A stretch of DNA of 64,000 bases from Euzebya pacifica (lineage in GTDB: Bacteria > Actinomycetota > Nitriliruptoria > Euzebyales > Euzebyaceae). The notes under the pieces were generated by a model, which was not told the origin of the DNA, made no database searches, and saw only the letters and a program-made list of their open reading frames with translations. Numbering within the stretch: position 1 is the first letter of the stretch; every line of letters begins with the position of its first letter. The stretch covers positions 4,159,910 through 4,223,909 of the forward strand of contig NZ_CP031165.1 of assembly GCF_003344865.1 (NCBI RefSeq). The letters run 5' to 3'. Below, piece by piece: positions 16,699 through 29,227 of this stretch. The translations under genes and the position numbers were made by a program.

Positions 16699-17729
16699 GC
16701 CAGGTGGGCGGTGCCCAGGTCGCTCGGGCGGGTCGCGCCGATGCCCCACACGGCGATGCGCATCTGCTGCACCAGCGTTCCCAGCGCCGAGGTCGCCCGT
16801 TCGGGGCCCTCGGCTCCGGCGGCGATCAGCCGGCGACCGAAGCCGACGAGGTCGGCACCGAGACACAGGCACTTGACGGCGTCCACCCCGTGGGCCAGCC
16901 CGCCCGAGGCGATGAGGAGGGGGCGTCGATCGGCCGGTGCGTCCCCCAGGACCCCCATGGCGGCCACCAAGCTGTCGTGCGTGGACCAGCCCCAGTCCAC
17001 GAACGCGGCGGCGATCGCCCCGGCGTCGGTGTCGCGGTGGCCCTCGACCCGCGCCCAGTTCGTCCCGCCTGCGCCGGCGACGTCGATGGCGGCGACCCCG
17101 GTGTCGACCAGCGCTCGGACGTCGTCGGCGGCCATGCCGAACCCGACCTCCTTGGCCACGACGGGAACCCCGAGGCCCGCGACCACGTCGGCGATGCGGC
17201 CCAGCACGTCCCCGAAACCGGTGTCGCCCTCGGGCTGCACGGCCTCCTGCACGGCGTTGAGGTGCAGCACCAGCGCGTCGGCCCGGGTCCGCTCCACCAG
17301 CTCGTGACAGCCGTCGAGGCCGACCTCGGCCAGCTGGACCGCACCGAGGTTGGCCAGCAGGGGCACGTCCGGTGCGATGTCGCGGACCTCGAAGGACGCG
17401 GGGTCGCCGCCCTGCAGCAGCACCCGCCCCGACCCGAGGCCGAGGGCCACCCGGTGATGCTGTGCGGCAGCCGCCAGCGCGGCGTTGACGGGGCCGGCAT
17501 CACCGGTCCCACCGGTCATGCAGCTGATCAGGACCGGAGCCCCCAGCGTCGTGCCGAACGCCCGGACCGACAGGTCGACGGTGTCGAGGTCGTGGCCGGG
17601 AAGTGCCCTGGCCGCCAGCCGGACCCCTTCGAGCCCGGTGGTCAGGCCGACGTGTGCGACGTCACCGTCGAGGACCACCCGCAGGTGGTCGGCCTTGCGA
17701 CGGGCGGACGCGTCCGCCTGTTCGCTCAG
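16695..17729 (-). CDS. fni: Type 2 isopentenyl-diphosphate isomerase, CTG start
   Basis: FMN- and NADPH-dependent isomerase of about 344 residues interconverting IPP and DMAPP, supplying the allylic primer for CrtE. Seen: RRKADHLRVVL near the N-terminus, VLISCMTGGTGDAG (flavin/substrate site), LHLNAVQEAVQPEGD, AKEVGFGM, AGAGGTNWARVEGHR and the phosphate-binding IASGGLAHGVDAVK. No ATG, GTG or TTG is available at the right place: the only codon that gives the family N-terminus is CTG at 17729-17727, and it overlaps the yjbQ stop as CTGA, the same geometry as the GTGA and ATGA overlaps elsewhere in this operon. The only nearby GTG would start inside yjbQ and add about 30 unlikely residues. Confidence 0.9.
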   Translation of the reverse strand: MSEQADASARRKADHLRVVLDGDVAHVGLTTGLEGVRLAARALPGHDLDTVDLSVRAFGTTLGAPVLISCMTGGTGDAGPVNAALAAAAQHHRVALGLGSGRVLLQGGDPASFEVRDIAPDVPLLANLGAVQLAEVGLDGCHELVERTRADALVLHLNAVQEAVQPEGDTGFGDVLGRIADVVAGLGVPVVAKEVGFGMAADDVRALVDTGVAAIDVAGAGGTNWARVEGHRDTDAGAIAAAFVDWGWSTHDSLVAAMGVLGDAPADRRPLLIASGGLAHGVDAVKCLCLGADLVGFGRRLIAAGAEGPERATSALGTLVQQMRIAVWGIGATRPSDLGTAHLA

Positions 17730-18376
17730 CGCCAGCCCTGGACCTGCAGCTGGACCTTGCGGTTGCGGGCCTGGTCCAGCTCGATGAACATGATCCGCTG
17801 CCACGTGCCCAGGCGCAGCGTCCCGTCGGCGACCGGCACCGACTCCGACGCGCTGCCCAGCAGCATCTGCTTGATGTGGGCGTGGCCGTTGATCGGCTCC
17901 TCCTCCACGGTGCCCGCCAGTGTCGCGTGGTCGCGGATCTCGAAGTCGTCGTGGCGGTAGTAGGCCTCCTGCGGCACCAGCGCCTCCATGAACAGCCGCA
18001 GGTCCTCCAGGAAACACGTCTCGCGCTCGTTGATCTTGATCGCGCACGTCGTGTGCTGGGAGAAGACCGACAGCATGCCCTCCTTCACCCCGCTCTCGGC
18101 GACGAGCTCCTGGCAGTCCTCCGTCACGTCGGTGACGTGGAACAGCCGCTCGGTGGCGATGTGGATCGCACGCCGGGCCACGACCGGCTGCAGGCCGGAC
18201 AGCTCGGTGATGCTCGCTTCACGACGGGCAGCGCGGGGCGCCTCGACCAGCACCTGCGGGGGAAGCCCGTTGAGCTTCTCCTTGGGGCGGCCGTTGCCGT
18301 TCAGCTCGGCAACACCGTTCAGCGTCTCCATTGACTCTGGGCTTGAGGGGGTCACGGACAGATCCTTTGTGTTCAC
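17726..18376 (-). CDS. YjbQ/UPF0047 family protein with long N-terminal extension
   Basis: 216 residues: about 75 polar N-terminal residues rich in Asn, Gly and Leu, then a complete YjbQ (UPF0047, secondary thiamine-phosphate synthase) domain of about 135 residues. Conserved positions are visible: SQHTTCAIKINE, LVPQEAYYRHDD, NGHAHIKQMLLG and GTWQRIMFIELD. Members have weak thiamine-phosphate synthase activity in vitro; their real role is uncertain. GTG 18376 overlaps the crtB stop as GTGA. If the extension is not translated, an internal start such as the Met in PESMETLNG is the alternative. Its place between crtB and fni suggests a role tied to isoprenoid phosphates, which is inference only. 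Confidence 0.85.
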   Translation of the reverse strand: MNTKDLSVTPSSPESMETLNGVAELNGNGRPKEKLNGLPPQVLVEAPRAARREASITELSGLQPVVARRAIHIATERLFHVTDVTEDCQELVAESGVKEGMLSVFSQHTTCAIKINERETCFLEDLRLFMEALVPQEAYYRHDDFEIRDHATLAGTVEEEPINGHAHIKQMLLGSASESVPVADGTLRLGTWQRIMFIELDQARNRKVQLQVQGWR

Positions 18377-19485: not shown

Positions 19486-20975
19486 GGTTGCCGCTCCAGC
19501 TGCTGGGCGACGCGTTCGGCGGCCAACCGGCCGCTGACCAGGACCATCGGCACCCCGACGCCGGGCGTGGTGGAGGACCCGACGAAGACGACGCTCTCGA
19601 CCTTGGGGGCGACGTTGGCAGGCCGGAAGGGACCGGTCTGGCGGAAGTGGTGGCTGGCGGCGAACGGGGTACCGGCCGCCATGCCCATGTCGGCCCAGTC
19701 CTGCGGGGTGACGACGTGGCTGGTCACGACGCTGTCACCGACGGGGCCGTACTTGGCCTGCTCGAGCCGTTCGATCGTGGCCGCGACCTCGCGTTGCCCC
19801 TGGTGGGTCCAGTTGATCGGGTCACCGTTGAGGTTGGGGCTGGGCACGAGCACGAAGGCGACCTCGCCGCCGTCGGGGGCCATGTCGGGGTCGGCGTGGG
19901 TCGGAACCGACAGGAACCACGAGGGGTCTCGCTGGAGTCGCCCGGCGAGGATGTCGTCGAAGGACGCCTGGTAGTCCTCGGCGAAGTGGATGTTGTGATG
20001 TGCGGCGTCCAGGAGCTTGCGGTCCAGGCCCAGGTGCACGACGGTGCAGGACGGTGAGAACGTCAGCCGCTTCACGCGTGCGGGAGTGGCCCGGGGTGGC
20101 AGCAGGTCGCGATAGGCGATCGGCAGGTCGGGGTTGAGGACGACGACGTCGGCGTGGTGGACGGTGCCGTCGACCAGCCGCACCCCGTTGGCGCGCTTGC
20201 CCGCCCCGGTGACCTCGGCCACCTCCGCGCCGTAGCGGATGTCCACCCCGTGGCGCGATGCAAGGTCGGCCAGGCCCTCGGCGATCGCGTGGATGCCGCC
20301 CTTGACGCCGTACACGCCAGCGATGGCGTCCATGTAGGCGATCACGGCGTAGATGCCGAGCGCCTCGTACGGGCTCATCCCGGCGTACATCGACTGGAAG
20401 GTGAACAGCCGCTGGAGCCGCCAGTCGGTCAGGAACGACCCGACGAGGTTGGCGACCTTGCGGAAGCCCCCGAGCCGGATGAGGTTGACCATCTTGTCGG
20501 GCCGTGCCAGATCCAGCGGGCTGTCGAAGTTGGCGTCGATGAAGGTCTCGTACTCCGCCTCGTACAGCTTCTTGAGGTGGCCGGCGAAGCGAACGAAGTT
20601 GTCGGCCTCCGCGGGACCGGCGAGCTGGCGGACCTCCTCGGTCATCGCGGCCACCGAGCCACGGATGCGCACGACCGAGCCGTCGTGGAACGTGGCCCGA
20701 TACGCCGGGTCCAGCCGTTCCATGGTCAGGTGGTCCTGCATGCGTTCCCCGTGGAGCGCGTACAGGTCGGCGACCAGCGCCGGCATCGTCATGACCGACG
20801 GACCCGTGTCGAACGTGAATCCCCGGTCCAGGATCTGGCCGGCGCGGCCGCCCGGGATCGGGTCGCGTTCCAGCAGGGTGACGTGGTGTCCGTCTGCGGC
20901 AACGCGGATGGCGGTGGCCAGGCCCCCGAGTCCAGCGCCGACGACCACGACGTCGGCGGGGTGCGTCCGCAGCAT
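19482..20975 (-). CDS. crtI: Phytoene desaturase
   Basis: CrtI-type FAD-dependent phytoene desaturase, 497 residues, converting phytoene to neurosporene or lycopene. Seen: N-terminal dinucleotide fold VVVGAGLGGLATAIR, LLERDPIPGGRAGQ, DTGPSVMTMP, and the C-terminal FAD block FVGSSTTPGVGVPMVLVSGRLAAE. It starts two bases after the crtE stop. No lycopene cyclase, ketolase or elongase is present here, so the final carotenoid cannot be named. Confidence 0.96.
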   Translation of the reverse strand: MLRTHPADVVVVGAGLGGLATAIRVAADGHHVTLLERDPIPGGRAGQILDRGFTFDTGPSVMTMPALVADLYALHGERMQDHLTMERLDPAYRATFHDGSVVRIRGSVAAMTEEVRQLAGPAEADNFVRFAGHLKKLYEAEYETFIDANFDSPLDLARPDKMVNLIRLGGFRKVANLVGSFLTDWRLQRLFTFQSMYAGMSPYEALGIYAVIAYMDAIAGVYGVKGGIHAIAEGLADLASRHGVDIRYGAEVAEVTGAGKRANGVRLVDGTVHHADVVVLNPDLPIAYRDLLPPRATPARVKRLTFSPSCTVVHLGLDRKLLDAAHHNIHFAEDYQASFDDILAGRLQRDPSWFLSVPTHADPDMAPDGGEVAFVLVPSPNLNGDPINWTHQGQREVAATIERLEQAKYGPVGDSVVTSHVVTPQDWADMGMAAGTPFAASHHFRQTGPFRPANVAPKVESVVFVGSSTTPGVGVPMVLVSGRLAAERVAQQLERQP

Positions 20976-20977
20976 GG

Positions 20978-22081
20978 TCAGGCGCTCCGGTCGACGGCCA
21001 CGGATGCGAGCTCGAGCAGGGCGGATCTGGAGGGGTCGGAAAGGTGCTCCACCGCGCGGTCGGCGTCGGCCCGGAGACCGGTCAGGTGGGCCTCGACGTG
21101 ATCGGCGGCACCGGTGTCCACGACGATCTGGCGGACGGCATCGGCATCGTCCCGCGTGGCGTCGGGGTTGCCGACGACCCGATCGAGGACCTCGCGCTGG
21201 GCAGGGGTGGCCTGGTCACGGGCGTGGAGGATCAGCATGGTGCGCTTGCCCTCGCGGATGTCCTCCAGCGATCCCTTGCCGGTGGTGTCGGGATCGCCGA
21301 GCAGCCCGAGGACGTCGTCACGCAGCTGGAAGGCCACCCCGACGGCGTCACCGAACGTCGACAGCGTGCGGTCGAGGTCCGGATCGGTTCCGCCGAGCGC
21401 CGCCCCCATCTGCAGCGGGCGGGTGACCGTGTACCGGCCGGACTTCAGCAGGGACACGCGCAGCGAGTCGGCCTCTGATGCCGCGGGAAGGCCGGAGAGC
21501 CGCAGGTCCAGGTACTGGCCGGCCATCACCTCCGCGCGGAGCTGCCCGAACACGCGTCGAGCCCTGGCCATCGCACGGTGCTCCAGACGAGCCGCCTCGA
21601 ACAGCATGTCGGCCCAGACGAAGACCATGTCACCGGCGAGGATCCCGCCGCCGACGCCGAACCACTCGGGGTCGCCGGAGAGGCCGGCCTCGATGTGGTG
21701 GTCGCGCAGGGCGGTGTGGACTGCCGGCAACCCGCGACGCGTGGCCGAGCGATCCATGATGTCGTCGTGGATGAGCGCGAAGGTGTGCAGCAGCTCGACG
21801 GCACCGGCGGGCTTCAGCACCTCGGGGTCGGTGTGTCCCGTCGCGGCCCGGTAGCCCCACCACACGAAGGCAGGACGCAGCCGCTTGCCACCAGCCGACA
21901 CCAGCGCGGTGACCGCATCCGCGACGGGTTCGAGGGCGGGGTCGAGATCAGCCAGTTCGTCCGCGCGAGCGCGCAGGAACCGTTCGAGGACCGCGTCGAC
22001 CCGGCCGGCAACACCGCCGAGCACACCTCCCGGAGGAGGGTCGAGCAGATCGGTGGTGTCGGAAGAGGTCATGGTGTGCAT
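20978..22081 (-). CDS. crtE: Geranylgeranyl diphosphate synthase
   Basis: Trans-prenyltransferase of about 367 residues elongating DMAPP with IPP, presumably to C20 for CrtB. Seen: GGKRLRPAFVWWG, first Asp-rich motif LIHDDIMDRSATRRG, the KT-type region LKSGRYTVTRPLQMG, and the second motif FQLRDDVLGLLGD followed by GKGSLEDIREGKRT. The frame extends further upstream, but ATG 22081 has GAAGG about seven bases before it; ATG 22072 is the alternative. First gene of the crt operon, divergent from the ECF sigma gene. Confidence 0.94.
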   Translation of the reverse strand: MHTMTSSDTTDLLDPPPGGVLGGVAGRVDAVLERFLRARADELADLDPALEPVADAVTALVSAGGKRLRPAFVWWGYRAATGHTDPEVLKPAGAVELLHTFALIHDDIMDRSATRRGLPAVHTALRDHHIEAGLSGDPEWFGVGGGILAGDMVFVWADMLFEAARLEHRAMARARRVFGQLRAEVMAGQYLDLRLSGLPAASEADSLRVSLLKSGRYTVTRPLQMGAALGGTDPDLDRTLSTFGDAVGVAFQLRDDVLGLLGDPDTTGKGSLEDIREGKRTMLILHARDQATPAQREVLDRVVGNPDATRDDADAVRQIVVDTGAADHVEAHLTGLRADADRAVEHLSDPSRSALLELASVAVDRSA

Positions 22082-22389
22082 GCGCGGCCTTCGCCCGGTG
22101 GGGGGAGAACGGGGATCGGGACACAGAGGATGCCCAACCGTTGTTCGGAGCGAACGCAGGCGCGGTTCAACCGTACCCCCCGAAAACAGGATCAGGGCCG
22201 GATCCCCTGCTCGACGATCCGGCCCTGCCCACCCCCTCACGTACGTGCGTACGCGGGATGCCCACCCGTACAGAACGAGCGAGAGGCCCAGGTGGTTAAC
22301 ACTCCGAACGAAACTTTCTTGAAGGATGCTGCTGCCCGACGGCGAACCCTGTGATGCGGGCATGTTCACCTTCTGCCCAACGCCGCTGT
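22082..22389. promoter_or_regulatory. Divergent control region, crtE / ECF sigma
   Basis: 308 bases without a gene. It holds a perfect 12-bp inverted repeat CAGGGCCGGATC (22193-22204) / GATCCGGCCCTG (22216-22227) with an 11-base spacer, and two overlapping short palindromes: CACGTACGTG (22238-22247) and GTACG-TG-CGTAC (22241-22252). These look like operators or a leader hairpin for crtE. An AT-richer patch at 22294-22322 (GGTTAAC, GAAACTTTCTT) is where a promoter for the sigma gene would be expected, but no consensus can be named. Confidence 0.5.
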
Positions 22390-23547
22390 ATGTCCACCAC
22401 GAATTCCTCTCCGCCGTCCTCGCCGCCGCACCGCCTGCTGGCGGCTGCCCGCGCGGGCGATGACGACGCCTTCGCGGCCATCGTCCGTCAGCACGGCCCT
22501 CCGGTGATGACCACGTGCCTGCGGTGGGTCAAGGACCACCACACGGCCGAGGACCTGACCCAGGACGTGTTCGTGCGGTTGCTGCGCAGCGACATCGCTC
22601 CCCTGGACGATCGGGAGCTGCGCCGGTGGCTGCTGCAGGTGGCACGCAACGTCGCCATCGACCACCACCGTCACAGCGAGGTGGTGCGTCGCAGCGAGGA
22701 CGCCGCCGTCGACCTCGTGATCCCGGAGTCGGCACCGCAGCGCACCGTGGAGATGCGGGTGCTGATCGCCCAGGTGCTGCACGAGCTGAGCGACCGCGAC
22801 GCCGAGCTGGTGGTCGAGCACTACATGGAGGACCTGTCGCTCCGCGAGATGGCGGAGCGACGCGGCACCACCCGGGACACGATCAAGGTCCAGCTGCACC
22901 GCGCCCGTGCCCGCGCCCGGACCATCGCCCGGGACCGTCGGATCGACGGGCTCCCGTGGCTGCCCGCCCCGTTCGCACGCATGACGTCGGCCGTCAAGGG
23001 CATGGGCGCGCAGGTTGGCCTCAAGGCCGCCGCGGCGGTGCTGGCTCCCCTGCTCGTTCTCGGCGGGCTGAACCTGACACCGGACCGTTGGCCGGGAGAG
23101 ACCCGCGACGACGATCCAGCGGTGCTCGATGCGGTGACGGAGGTCTCGGTGCCGACGGCCACAGGCGACACGGTGGCGGCCCCGGCCGGTGCCGCGGCGG
23201 GCACGAGTGCGGACACGCAAGCCGCAGAGGACGACGCCGGTGGCCGTGATGGCGGTGGTGCACCGAGCGTCGACTCGGACCCACCGCCGGCACTGCCCCA
23301 GGACGTGATTCCCAACGGACGGGTCACCGTGCCCACCACCGATCGGACCGTGGTGGAGTCGAGCAACTACAGCGACCGCGAGGCAGGTACTCGACAGCTC
23401 ATGCTCCTACCGGGCGTGACCCACGAGGACGGGGTCACGGGGCTCACCGAGAACCCCGACGACACTCCCGAGGAACGCGCGGCGTTCCGCGACATCTGCG
23501 AGCTCGGCGGTCGTGCCGAGCCGGTCCTGGAGTGCCAGGAGAACTGA
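22390..23547 (+). CDS. ECF sigma factor with membrane-spanning C-terminal tail
   Basis: Protein of about 385 residues. Residues about 25-95 form sigma-70 region 2 (CLRWVKDHHTAEDLTQDVF) and about 128-180 region 4 with its helix-turn-helix (LSLREMAERRGTTRDTIK). A hydrophobic segment follows (about 212-228, AAAAVLAPLLVLGGLNL), then about 155 Ala/Asp/Thr-rich residues that would lie outside the cell, with two Cys near the end. No separate anti-sigma gene is next to it, so the tail may tether or regulate the factor itself. Divergence from crtE suggests control of carotenoid synthesis. The start is uncertain: ATG 22390, or GTG 22351 / ATG 22354 with 12-13 extra residues; no good ribosome site is seen for any. 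Confidence 0.85.
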   Translation: MSTTNSSPPSSPPHRLLAAARAGDDDAFAAIVRQHGPPVMTTCLRWVKDHHTAEDLTQDVFVRLLRSDIAPLDDRELRRWLLQVARNVAIDHHRHSEVVRRSEDAAVDLVIPESAPQRTVEMRVLIAQVLHELSDRDAELVVEHYMEDLSLREMAERRGTTRDTIKVQLHRARARARTIARDRRIDGLPWLPAPFARMTSAVKGMGAQVGLKAAAAVLAPLLVLGGLNLTPDRWPGETRDDDPAVLDAVTEVSVPTATGDTVAAPAGAAAGTSADTQAAEDDAGGRDGGGAPSVDSDPPPALPQDVIPNGRVTVPTTDRTVVESSNYSDREAGTRQLMLLPGVTHEDGVTGLTENPDDTPEERAAFRDICELGGRAEPVLECQEN

Positions 23548-23554
23548 CGGCCGG

Positions 23555-23716
23555 TCAGCGCACGCAGAGCATGTCGTCGATGGCAGGCAGCGGCAGGCAC
23601 GGGAGCGCCGACGCAACCACCTCCTCGGACGCGCCGTGGGTGGAGGCGCTGGTGGGCCCGGCGAGGGCGAGGGAGAGCGCGAGGGACAGGACCAGGGTGG
23701 CGTTTCGGATGACCAT
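23555..23716 (-). CDS. Small secreted peptide, 53 aa
   Basis: Short frame from ATG 23716 to the stop at 23555. The N-terminus is a textbook signal peptide: MVIRN, a hydrophobic core of alternating Leu/Ala/Ser, then LAGPTSAS with a likely TSA|S cleavage. The mature part would be about 28 residues with two Cys (ALPCLPLP and DDMLCVR), possibly disulfide-linked. It faces the end of the ECF sigma gene (seven-base gap, convergent). Upstream is the dyad GAACC-AGT-GGTTC on the coding strand. No family recognised; the signal peptide is the main support. Confidence 0.55.
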   Translation of the reverse strand: MVIRNATLVLSLALSLALAGPTSASTHGASEEVVASALPCLPLPAIDDMLCVR

Positions 23717-23800
23717 GCATCCGAATGTGAACCACTGGTTCGGTCACTCCTGACGCCCGCGCCGTCACATTTGACGAACCCTTGCCCCCGCCGCCTGGGG

Positions 23801-25246
23801 TCAGCCCGTCAGCTTGGCGTTCAGCAGCTGGTTGACCAGGGCCGGGTCGGCCTTGCCCTTGCTGGCGCGCATGACGCCGCCGACGAGGGCCCCCATGGCC
23901 TTGGGGTTGCCGTCGCGCACCTTCTGGGCGGCGTCGGCCTGCTCGGCGATGACCTGGTCGACGATGGCCTCGATCGCGCTGACGTCGGAGACCTGCTCGT
24001 GGTCCTTCGCCAGGTCGGCCACGGTGCCCTCGCCGGCCAGCACCGACGTCAGGACCTTGCGGGCCCCGCCCTTGCCGAGGGTGCCGTCGGCAACCCGGCC
24101 GAGCAGCGAGGCGAACTCCTCACCCGGCAGCGCCTCGACCGCCGAGCGGCCGGTCTCGTTCTGCCAGCCAGCGACCTCGTTGACCAGCCACTTGGTGGCG
24201 TCGGCGGCGTCGGCGCCACCGGCCACGGCGGCGTCGAGCAGCGGGATCAGGCCGGCGTCCTGCATGGTCACGACCGACTTGCGGTCCAGGCCGTGGGCAT
24301 CGATCAGCCGCGCCCGCGTGACGGCGGGCAGCTCGGGCAGGCTGGCACGGATCTCCTCGATCCACGCCGGATCGGGGACCATCTCGACCAGGTCGGGATC
24401 GGGGAAGTACCGGTAGTCGTCCAGCGTCTCCTTGCGACGCAGGGTAGAGGTCGTGCCGGCGTCCTCGTCCCAGTGGCGGGTCTCCTGCACCACGGTGCCG
24501 CCGGACTCCACGACGTCGATCTGGCGGGCGATCTCGTACTCGATCGCACGACCGAGCGAGCGCACGGAGTTCATGTTCTTGATCTCCGCGCGGGTGCCGT
24601 AGGGAGTACCCGGCTTGTGGATGCTGACGTTGGCGTCACACCGCATCGACCCCTCCTCCAGCTTGGCGTCGGAGATGCCAAGGGCGAGGACGATGCCGCG
24701 CAGCTCCGTCAGGTAGGCCTGCGCCTGCTCGGCGGTGCGGATGTCGGGCTCCGACACGCACTCCAGCAGCGGCACCCCGGCCCGGTTGTAGTCCACGAGG
24801 GAATAGTCGGCGCCGTGGACCCGTCCGGACTCGCCGACGTGCACGTTCTTGCCGGCGTCCTCCTCCATGTGGATCCGCGTGACGCCGATGCGGACCGGCC
24901 CCTCGCTGGTCTCGATGTCGAGGTGGCCCACACCGCAGATCGGCACGTCGTACTGGCTGATCTGGTAGTTCTTCGGCATGTCCGGATAGAAGTAGTTCTT
25001 CCGGTGGAACTGGCTGACCGGTGCGATCTCGCAGTCCAGGGCCAGGCCCATCCTGATGGCGTGCTCCACGGCCGTGCCGTTGACCACGGGCAGGGTGCCG
25101 GGCAAGCCGAGGTCGACCTCGGTCACCCGGGTGTTGGGTGCCCCGCCGAACTCGTTGGGGCAGGCGGAGAACATCTTGGTCCGTGTCGACAGCTCGACGT
25201 GGACCTCCAGGCCGATGACGGCTTCCCAGTCGCTCATCTTCGTCAC
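23801..25246 (-). CDS. gatB: Asp-tRNA(Asn)/Glu-tRNA(Gln) amidotransferase subunit B
   Basis: tRNA-binding and kinase subunit of the GatCAB complex, 481 residues, which converts Glu-tRNA(Gln) and/or Asp-tRNA(Asn) to the amidated form. Seen: [20 protein letters not shown] at the N-terminus, [51 protein letters not shown], and the C-terminal YqeY-like helical tail domain. GTG 25246 overlaps the gatA stop as GTGA; ATG 25237 is an alternative. Last gene of gatC-gatA-gatB. Confidence 0.97.
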
Positions 25247-27143: not shown

Positions 27144-27218
27144 GTGGGGTTGCGCAGGCCGTACGTCCCGACCCCCGACAGATCTCCTGCTCCTTCGGCG
27201 ATGGGAAGAACGAGAACG

Positions 27219-28025
27219 ATGGATGTGGCGCAGCGGTACAACGTGACGGTCGGCGGTGTCGACGACGGACAGCCGATGCTGTTCGCCCACGGCTTCGGCT
27301 GCGACCAGCAGATGTGGCGCTTCGTCGAGCCGGCGTTCGCCGATCGGTACCGGACGATCCTGTTCGACCACGTCGGCGCAGGTCACTCCGACGCGTCCGC
27401 CTGGGACCCCGAGACCTACGGCTCCCTGGATGCCTACGCCGCGGACGTGCTGTCCATCGTGCACGAGCTGGACCTCCAGGACGTAGTCTTCGTCGGCCAT
27501 TCGGTCTCGGCGATGATCGGGGTGCTGGCCGCCAACGCCGAACCCGACCGGTTCGCCTCCCTCGTCCTCGTCGGCCCGTCGCCGCGCTACATCAACGACG
27601 ACGGGTACACCGGCGGGTTCTCCGAGGCCGACATCGAGGAGCTGTTCGGTGCGCTGGACAGCAACTACCTGGGCTGGTCCAGCGCCATGGCGCCGGTGAT
27701 CATGGGCAACCCCGACCGTCCGGCACTCGGTGAGGAGCTGACGGAGAGCTTCTGCCGCACCGACCCCGAGATCGCCCGCAGGTTCGCCCACGTCACCTTC
27801 ACCTCCGACAACCGCGCGGACCTCGAGAAGGTGTCGGTGCCGGCGCTGGTGCTGCAGTGCACCAACGACGTGATCGCCCCGGAGGCGGTCGGCCGCTACG
27901 TGCACGACCGGATTCCCGACAGCGACTTCGTGCTGCTCGACGCCACGGGCCACTGTCCCAACCTGAGCGCACCGGACGCCACGATCGAGGCGATCGAGGG
28001 CTTCCTGAGGACCCGCACGGGGTGA
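27219..28025 (+). CDS. RsbQ-like alpha/beta hydrolase
   Basis: 268 residues, nearly the same length as Bacillus RsbQ. Catalytic triad: Ser in GHSVSAMIG (the RsbQ-type elbow), Asp in CTNDVIAPEAVG, His in ATGHCPNLSAP; the oxyanion region is AHGFGCDQQMW. RsbQ is needed with the phosphatase RsbP to signal energy stress to SigB; plant KAI2/D14 receptors are its relatives. ATG 27219 matches the family N-terminus; ATG 27201 is an in-frame alternative. The stop overlaps the GTG of the PAS-phosphatase gene (GTGA), so both proteins are probably made together. Confidence 0.9.
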   Translation: MDVAQRYNVTVGGVDDGQPMLFAHGFGCDQQMWRFVEPAFADRYRTILFDHVGAGHSDASAWDPETYGSLDAYAADVLSIVHELDLQDVVFVGHSVSAMIGVLAANAEPDRFASLVLVGPSPRYINDDGYTGGFSEADIEELFGALDSNYLGWSSAMAPVIMGNPDRPALGEELTESFCRTDPEIARRFAHVTFTSDNRADLEKVSVPALVLQCTNDVIAPEAVGRYVHDRIPDSDFVLLDATGHCPNLSAPDATIEAIEGFLRTRTG

Positions 28026-29227
28026 CGGACTCGCTGTCATCACGATCCGACGGCGTCGGGCCGGTCCTGGTCCCCGATGACGACGCGGAGGACCTCTACG
28101 AGCGTGCCCCCTGCGGCTACTTGTCGACGACCCGGACCGGCACGATCGTGCGGGTCAACCAGACGTTGCTGGAGTGGCTGGGCGCGGAGCGCGAGGACCT
28201 CCTCGGCAAACCGTTCACCGACCTGCTGAGCGCGGGCGGCCGGATCTACCACGAGACCCACTACCGCCCGATGCTGTCGCTCCACGGAACGGTCCGGGAG
28301 ATCGCCCTGGACTTCGTCCGCCAGGACGCAACCCGGCTGCCGGTGCTGGTCAACTCCCGGGTGGTCGTGCCCTCCGACGGTGGGGAGGAAGTCATCCGGA
28401 CCAGCGTCCTGGACGCGACCCACCGCCGCGAGTACGAGCAGGAGCTGCTGCGCGCCCGCCGGCGAGCCGAGGAGTCCGAAGCCAAGTCCGCCGAGCTCGC
28501 CCGCACCCTGCAGTCCAGCCTGATCCCCCCGGGCCTGCCGACCATCGAGGGTGTGGAGCTGGGGGCGACCTACCGTCCCGCCGGGGACGGTGCGCAGGTC
28601 GGCGGTGACTTCTACGACGTGTTCGAGACCGAACGCCACGACTGGATCGTGGTGGTCGGCGACGTCAGGGGAAAGGGCGCCCGGGCGGCAACCATCACCG
28701 CGCTCGTCCGCTACTCCATCAGGGCGGCCGCCATCCGCCAGCAGCGACCGTGCGACATCCTCGCCGACCTCAACGCCGTCCTGCTGCGCCACGAGACCGA
28801 GCGCTTCTGCACCGTCGTGTGCTGCCGCGTCCGGGTGGAGGACGACGGGACCGTGCGGGTCACGATTGCCAGCGGCGGGCATCCCCCGGCGGTGCTCGTC
28901 GGGCCCGAGCAGGCCGAGGCGGTCGACGTTGCCGGCACCCTGATCGGCGTGGTGGAGGAACCCTCCCTCACCGACGTCGAGGTGCGCCTGGGGCCCGGCG
29001 AGGGGCTGTTCTGCTACACCGACGGGCTGACCGAGGCCCGCCGGGGCCGGTCGATGCTCGGCGTGGAAGGGTTGCTGGACCTCCTGTTCACCCATCGCGC
29101 GCTCCCCGCCAACGAGCTGACCGACGCCGTGGTCGACGACGTCATGGCCTACCAGGGCAGCCGACCCCGCGACGACATCGCCGCGGTCCACATCCGCGTT
29201 CCCAGCGCCCCGCCACACACCACCTGA
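28022..29227 (+). CDS. RsbP-like PAS/PP2C phosphatase
   Basis: 401 residues: N-terminal PAS domain (about 20-130, YERAPCGYLSTTRTGTIVRVN), a helical linker (about 135-170), and a SpoIIE/RsbU-type PPM phosphatase domain (about 175-395). Metal-binding Asp residues are seen in GGDFYDV, VVGDVRGKG and YTDGLTEAR, and near the C-terminus in RDDIAAV. Such enzymes dephosphorylate an anti-anti-sigma factor in partner-switching stress pathways. GTG 28022 overlaps the hydrolase stop. The partners (RsbV/RsbW/SigB-type) are not in the window. It ends in a terminator shared with the convergent VWA gene. Confidence 0.92.
   Translation: MTDSLSSRSDGVGPVLVPDDDAEDLYERAPCGYLSTTRTGTIVRVNQTLLEWLGAEREDLLGKPFTDLLSAGGRIYHETHYRPMLSLHGTVREIALDFVRQDATRLPVLVNSRVVVPSDGGEEVIRTSVLDATHRREYEQELLRARRRAEESEAKSAELARTLQSSLIPPGLPTIEGVELGATYRPAGDGAQVGGDFYDVFETERHDWIVVVGDVRGKGARAATITALVRYSIRAAAIRQQRPCDILADLNAVLLRHETERFCTVVCCRVRVEDDGTVRVTIASGGHPPAVLVGPEQAEAVDVAGTLIGVVEEPSLTDVEVRLGPGEGLFCYTDGLTEARRGRSMLGVEGLLDLLFTHRALPANELTDAVVDDVMAYQGSRPRDDIAAVHIRVPSAPPHTT

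Follow-up and report, generated by a model that had tools for sequence, protein, structure and literature searches.

ECF sigma factors that carry their own membrane anchor have been described in several bacteria. IutY of Pseudomonas putida (ECF243), one of the systems closest to the protein analyzed here, is cut by Prc and RseP, and its truncated forms are constitutively active even when only the last nine residues are lost (PMC5411451). Among actinobacteria, descriptions of the groups ECF48, ECF52 and ECF53 report a fused C-terminal transmembrane (TM) helix with an outward extension, and regulation of these proteins is thought to proceed by proteolysis (PMC8999054, PMC5826349). Membrane-tethered ECFs as such are already known from these accounts of IutY and ECF48/52/53. 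A different arrangement is seen in Myxococcus xanthus, where CarQ, an ECF that controls carotenoid genes, is held at the membrane (PMC8156234). Moreover, the control of ECFs that lack an apparent adjoining regulator has been named as an open problem (PMC8103513).

We examined an ECF sigma factor gene located between gatB and crtE in a 64-kb stretch of DNA (hereafter the window), together with its relatives in the same genome, class and phylum. The comparison suggests that tethered sigma factors of this kind are recurrently accompanied by a small secreted-type protein with a pair of cysteines, which may take part in their control.

Domain architecture and predicted topology of the sigma factor

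The gene spans 22390..23547 on the plus strand, with an ATG at 22390 and a stop codon that ends at 23547, and encodes a product of 385 aa which Pfam, TIGR02937, AlphaFold2 and hydropathy together describe as an ECF sigma factor with a predicted TM helix and extracytoplasmic tail. Sigma-70 region 2 (PF04542, E 3.7e-13) covers residues 31-95 (22480..22674, plus strand), region 4 (PF08281, E 1.7e-9) covers residues 125-175 (22762..22914, plus strand), and the TIGR02937 score is 79.2 bits against a cut-off of 42.9; regions 1 and 3 are absent by the same searches, which places the protein among the ECF (sigma-70 group 4) factors. Beyond region 4 (after residue 177) no Pfam family was reported at E up to 1. 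Specifically, at this threshold the segment that links region 4 to the TM helix showed no zinc-finger (ZAS) domain, and no extracytoplasmic CSS anti-sigma domain of the IutY type was found; no anti-sigma domain was recognized in the juxtamembrane part, and the protein is free of cysteine between residues 44 and 369.

The TM helix is predicted at residues 209-231 (23014..23082, plus strand) from hydropathy, charge and conservation. The mean Kyte-Doolittle value of residues 209-227 (19 residues) is 1.98, which exceeds every control by a moderate rather than a wide margin: the maximum was 1.86 in nine cytosolic-type proteins of the window (reached in the nucleotide-binding fold of crtI) and 1.74 across the 49 sigma domains of the genome. 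The flanking charges (five K+R and two D+E before the stretch, two K+R and eight D+E after it) fit an N-in/C-out topology. The helix is followed by a low-complexity linker that is predicted to face outward and to be disordered (residues 232-354; 23083..23451, plus strand; AlphaFold2 and ortholog comparison), and by a C-terminal end that ortholog comparison shows to be conserved again and that contains Cys370 and Cys382 in a C-x11-C arrangement (23452..23544, plus strand). In the AlphaFold2 model the sigma domains are mostly above 90 pLDDT, a helix at 210-224 is of low confidence, residues 225-354 are disordered and a further helix occupies 360-372. The ortholog in the congener G002 is 63% identical and keeps both the hydrophobic stretch and the tail; identity is 85% in the sigma domains, 77% in the juxtamembrane part, 57% in the TM stretch, 28% in the linker and 54% in the last 31 residues. 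The first-pass annotation, which had proposed an ECF sigma factor with a TM helix and an extracytoplasmic tail, is thus confirmed, with a helix at 209-231 and about 154 outward residues after it; the exact length of the helix and the topology are matters of prediction only.

Small secreted-type proteins beside tailed sigma factors

Directly beside this gene lies an unannotated ORF of 53 aa (23555..23716, minus strand), convergent with the sigma gene and 7 bases from its stop, which the ORF filter, motif and AlphaFold2 characterize as secreted-type, with a signal-like N-terminus and a C-terminal C-x10-C. The best-predicted part of its AlphaFold2 model is formed by strands 40-43 and 48-51 (pLDDT about 80), and Cys40 and Cys51 are the ends of the modeled beta-hairpin, which is predicted to form a disulfide loop. 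Under a strict filter that demanded a length of 40-110 aa, a signal-like N-terminus, codon bias and at least two Cys after residue 26, this was the single ORF that passed in the whole window. The earlier suggestion that the protein may be a self-contained membrane-tethered sigma factor stands for the tethering, as a prediction, and is not supported for the self-containment, given a Cys-pair ORF 7 bases from the stop; a partner is likely because secreted-type Cys-pair ORFs accompany related TM-tailed ECFs as well.

The evidence for this association comes, in part, from the genome itself. A sigma factor survey gave 67 TIGR02937 matches, from which 49 loci were examined, the remainder being mostly weak region-4 matches below the cut-off. 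A short tail with a single TM stretch is present at four of these loci, namely the window gene, C1:1147948, C1:3140974 and C1:5584122, and within 700 bases on each side the strict filter retained an ORF at two of the four short-tailed TM-ECFs versus none of the 45 others. All four have an ortholog in G002, which encodes one extra short-tailed TM-ECF (C3:239138), and another genome of the same class, G050, encodes two; the zinc finger is missing from all those of the window's genome and from their orthologs in the congener. Full-length profile matches among the 66 genomes of the class were confined to the window's genome (G000), G002 and G050, and ten further loci read from this class-wide search were without a TM tail; among five outside matches, G243 and G113 were poorly resolved (frame wrong or no tail). 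A scan of genome contigs yielded nothing beyond one distant ECF, from a Bacteroidales MAG. The genome of the window also encodes an ECF-like protein (C1:808012, L085) that has a tail of 501 aa, contains a strong TM stretch (2.75) and differs in plan from the short-tailed set.

Across the three genomes G000, G002 and G050, a Cys-pair ORF flanks seven of the 11 short-tailed TM-ECFs, including the G002 ortholog of the window gene, where the spacing is again C-x10-C; the remaining four all have a Cys pair in their own tail, and three proteins have both the peptide ORF and the tail pair. Exactly two Cys, within the last 26 residues, were found in five distinct tails (window, 1147948, 3140974, G002 C3 and G050 C25b), and the tails of 5584122, G050_C22 and G310, a genome from elsewhere in the phylum, are free of Cys. 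Two other tailed ECFs, in G061 and G117, have neither the peptide nor a tail Cys pair. The peptide beside the window gene is only 22% identical between the two species, versus near identity in G000 and G002 for the peptide beside 5584122. Judged by their sequences, the short tails resemble each other in plan and not in sequence: the best hhalign E in tail-to-tail profile comparison across sigma lineages was 0.018, which is not significant. A single origin of all short tails was rejected on the sigma-domain tree, which did not include the long-matching sigma factors of groups 1-3 (AU p 0.0128, 11 rows); one origin of the eight Cys-pair rows was not rejected (AU p 0.087).

The pairing recurs in a second lineage, represented by the TM-tailed ECF of G310, which is followed by a 69-aa peptide-type ORF with a start that overlaps the sigma stop. 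Among the matches to this sigma factor in 148 relatives of G310, the 30 loci listed were read here, and 16 of these 30 have the peptide directly downstream. The start and stop codons overlap (ATGA or GTGA) in 15 of these 16, distributed over 11 family codes, and the peptide of the remaining locus, L198, begins 158 bases after the sigma stop. Such an overlap is also present at G050_C22, and is not a feature of the convergent window peptide. As L193 ends at a contig end, 29 of the 30 listed loci are assessable, 13 of which are without the peptide and mostly have long repetitive tails; at one of these peptide-less loci, L182, the tail itself terminates in a Cys pair. Over the 112,783 bases of these loci no ORF besides the peptides passed the strict filter. 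We further note that the outward tails of four TM-tailed ECFs without the peptide (L184, L190, L187 and L197) are built of short repeats.

The C-x10-C spacing is found in 13 of the 16 G310-type peptides, and the motif C[VLIFA]x5[DN]x3C in 12 of the 16 as well as in the window and G002 peptides. This motif has one match among the 895 six-frame segments of the window, the peptide itself, which is not a blind test because the motif was written after that peptide had been seen, with residue classes chosen by eye; with an HMM of the 16 G310-type peptides, the window peptide was outside the top 12 of the 895 segments. Ten of the peptides compared with Pfam and NCBIfam matched no family above cut-off. 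One G310-type peptide had a sub-cut-off NCBIfam match to the Phr N-terminus (E 0.33), which is signal-sequence similarity only. Taken together, the recurrence of sigma-peptide pairs within the phylum, as traced by sequence comparison, suggests a signaling module.

The locus between gatB and crtE

The sigma gene diverges from crtE (polyprenyl synthetase, PF00348; 20978..22081, minus strand), and on its other side, beyond the peptide ORF, lies gatB (PF02934 and PF02637; 23801..25246, minus strand). By Pfam, the sigma-peptide unit is flanked by crtE, crtI and crtB on one side and by gatB and gatA on the other, so that the initial reading of a sigma factor with no adjoining anti-sigma gene is borne out. 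The sigma gene is missing from two of the four genomes of the genus, all four of which have crtE. Eight other relatives were examined, and in seven of them gatB immediately precedes crtE with the same orientation. Given this usual gatB-crtE order and the absence of the sigma gene from two of the four genomes of the genus, the sigma-peptide unit, along with the intergenic region, is probably an insertion between gatB and crtE; the retention of crtE in genomes without the sigma gene implies, moreover, that crt can exist without this sigma factor.

The intergenic region that separates crtE from the sigma gene (22082..22389, 308 bases) is strongly conserved in G002, more so than the sigma tail, and occurs once in the genome; elsewhere there was a single weak match of 41 bases, in G011. 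Upstream of crtE it contains a perfect hairpin of 12 bp and, after it, a T-rich stretch (22193..22227, minus strand; z -4.9 for the minus strand), identical in G002 and resembling a terminator or attenuator, which could terminate antisense read-through from gatB or attenuate crtE. A 14-base direct repeat with the motif GGRTGCCCAMCCRT is present at 22128..22141 and 22256..22269 (both plus strand); it was rejected as a regulon motif, these being the only two exact sites in the genome. A candidate ECF-type promoter toward the sigma gene, GAAC-N16-CGTA (22152..22175, plus strand), is conserved in G002 and is weak evidence: the one site of the pattern GAAC-N16/17-CGT[AC] upstream of the sigma gene is not significant given 22 sites in the window on both strands, and none points toward crtE. 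An Rfam search of 20900-24000 returned nothing at E up to 1.

Divergence from crtE, which had been taken to indicate a stress- or light-linked signal for pigment synthesis, is indeed found in both genomes that have the sigma gene; the link to pigment control is positional only, and the flanks read around the three short-tailed paralogs contain no crt genes. The light link is without direct support, as no photoreceptor gene lies beside the sigma gene and a regulator with HTH and B12-binding domains is encoded elsewhere. This regulator (G000:C1:871067-871282; L158 1111-1977, minus strand) combines HTH_17 with two B12-binding domains, is not linked to crt and is a possible light sensor of the CarH/LitR kind. 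Within the crt cluster, a UPF0047 (YjbQ-type) gene (17726-18376, minus strand) is located between crtB and an FMN-dependent dehydrogenase family gene, which may be idi-2. Farther along the window, Pfam identifies an alpha/beta hydrolase followed by a PAS + SpoIIE-phosphatase protein (27144-29227, plus strand), a pair whose domains resemble the RsbQ-RsbP energy-stress pair of Bacillus subtilis.

A model for control and its relation to known systems

We tentatively propose, with a confidence that falls a little short of even, that the window protein is a tethered sigma factor and that its release by proteolysis depends on an extracytoplasmic Cys-loop part, whether fused to it or encoded separately. 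The sigma factor would be anchored at the cytoplasmic membrane by its one C-terminal TM helix, with the outward tail serving as a flexible linker to a small terminal module with a Cys pair and the neighboring secreted protein presenting a similar Cys pair, possibly in contact with the tail. As long as these Cys-loop parts stay undamaged and in position, tethering would keep the sigma factor inactive. A signal, such as envelope damage, a redox change, or the loss or arrival of the peptide, would remove or alter them, whereupon the tail would be trimmed and an M50-type site-2 protease, of which the genome encodes two, might cut the TM helix and free the sigma domain. The sigma domain would then be likely to act on its own gene and on that of the peptide, and perhaps also on the divergent crt operon. 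More broadly, and with more doubt, the Actinomycetota might possess a two-part signaling module that consists of a membrane-tethered ECF and a secreted disulfide-hairpin microprotein, the two often being coupled in translation; the hairpin, whether free or fused to the sigma tail, would gate proteolytic release, and because tails and hairpins are joined to several sigma lineages, such a module would have been recombined as a sensing unit.

Several other readings have to be weighed against control through the Cys-loop parts. It seems somewhat unlikely that the protein is a tethered sigma factor of the IutY or ECF52 kind that is freed by proteolysis of its own tail alone, the peptide being unrelated to control and, for instance, an envelope product of the target genes. 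Loss of the tail is the known or presumed mode of action of IutY and SCO4117 (PMC5411451, PMC8999054, PMC5826349), and the peptide is missing beside four of the 11 short-tailed TM-ECFs and 13 of the 29 assessable G310-type loci among those listed. However, a fused Cys pair is present in the peptide-less TM-ECFs of G002 and of the window's genome, and the 15 start-stop overlaps in 11 family codes point to production in fixed proportion, which would be expected of a partner or an inhibitor more than of a loosely associated target gene. Signaling between cells, with the secreted Cys-loop peptide as a pheromone and the sigma tail as its receptor in a Rap-Phr- or Agr-like manner, would account for the small size and signal-like N-terminus of the peptide, the overlapping genes and the fast change of the peptide beside the window gene between the two species. 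We consider it quite improbable, since no maturation or receptor gene was seen adjoining, the 5584122 peptide is nearly constant between G000 and G002, unlike typical pheromones, and a sigma factor acting as a tethered receptor lacks precedent.

That the hydrophobic stretch is not a TM helix at all, and that the tail is a cytoplasmic regulatory extension of a soluble protein, appears very unlikely. The moderate hydropathy, a Lys near the start of the stretch and the low model confidence are compatible with it, but short-tailed paralogs of the same plan have TM hydropathies of 2.39 and 2.67, the charges fit N-in/C-out and a Cys pair near the C-terminus suits an exported tail. A dedicated role in carotenoid gene control is unlikely, even though LitS of Streptomyces is an ECF sigma factor that controls carotenoid genes and could serve as a model alongside CarQ. 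The conserved divergence from crtE in both sigma-bearing genomes, an intergenic region better conserved than the tail and the known control of crt genes by CarQ (PMC8156234) speak for such a role; against it, G001 and G003 have crtE without the window sigma factor, gatB-crtE is the usual order, no promoter motif toward crtE rises above background, and none of the three paralogs is near crt genes in the flanks read.

If control through Cys-loop parts is correct, a co-encoded secreted protein outside any Pfam or NCBIfam family would be the missing regulator for one class of ECFs without an apparent adjoining regulator. If, in addition, the sigma factor drives crtE, the locus would exemplify an inserted membrane sensor that takes over an existing pigment operon. 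The peptide partner appears to be new within the searchable literature, in which no small secreted Cys protein was found as the partner of an ECF; this is weak evidence of novelty because most subscription papers were outside the search.

With respect to the known systems, the window sigma factor shares with CarQ its membership in the ECFs, and control of crt by it is a candidate function only; CarQ is held by a separate anti-sigma factor with six TM segments, CarR, whereas the predicted anchor of the window protein is part of the sigma factor itself. In Rap-Phr cassettes, a gene for a small secreted peptide overlaps the 3' end of the regulator gene, much as in the overlapping sigma-peptide pairs; Rap proteins, however, are soluble and Phr peptides are taken up, whereas here a Cys-pair peptide accompanies a regulator that is predicted to be a membrane-bound sigma factor. 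The fused C-terminal TM helix and outward extension of ECF48, ECF52 and ECF53 are, by prediction, present in the window protein too, but the zinc finger described for these groups, and the carbohydrate-binding module of SCO4117 (PMC8999054, PMC5826349) were not found in it by Pfam at E up to 1. Set against the ECF groups with C-terminal extensions, a comparison suggested at the outset, the protein thus shares the predicted TM extension, and it is not filed under ECF48/52/53 because their described zinc finger is absent. Another TM-tailed protein, G039:C1:212400, with a His/Cys-rich stretch ahead of its TM helix, looks by eye closer to these groups, although Pfam reports region 2 only. Like IutY, finally, the window protein combines a sigma domain, one predicted TM segment and an extracytoplasmic tail in a single polypeptide, and it is from IutY that the model of proteolytic release is borrowed (PMC5411451); in place of the CSS anti-sigma domain of IutY and its partner, a TonB-dependent receptor, however, the window protein has a predicted disordered linker with a terminal Cys pair and adjoins the gene of a small secreted-type protein.
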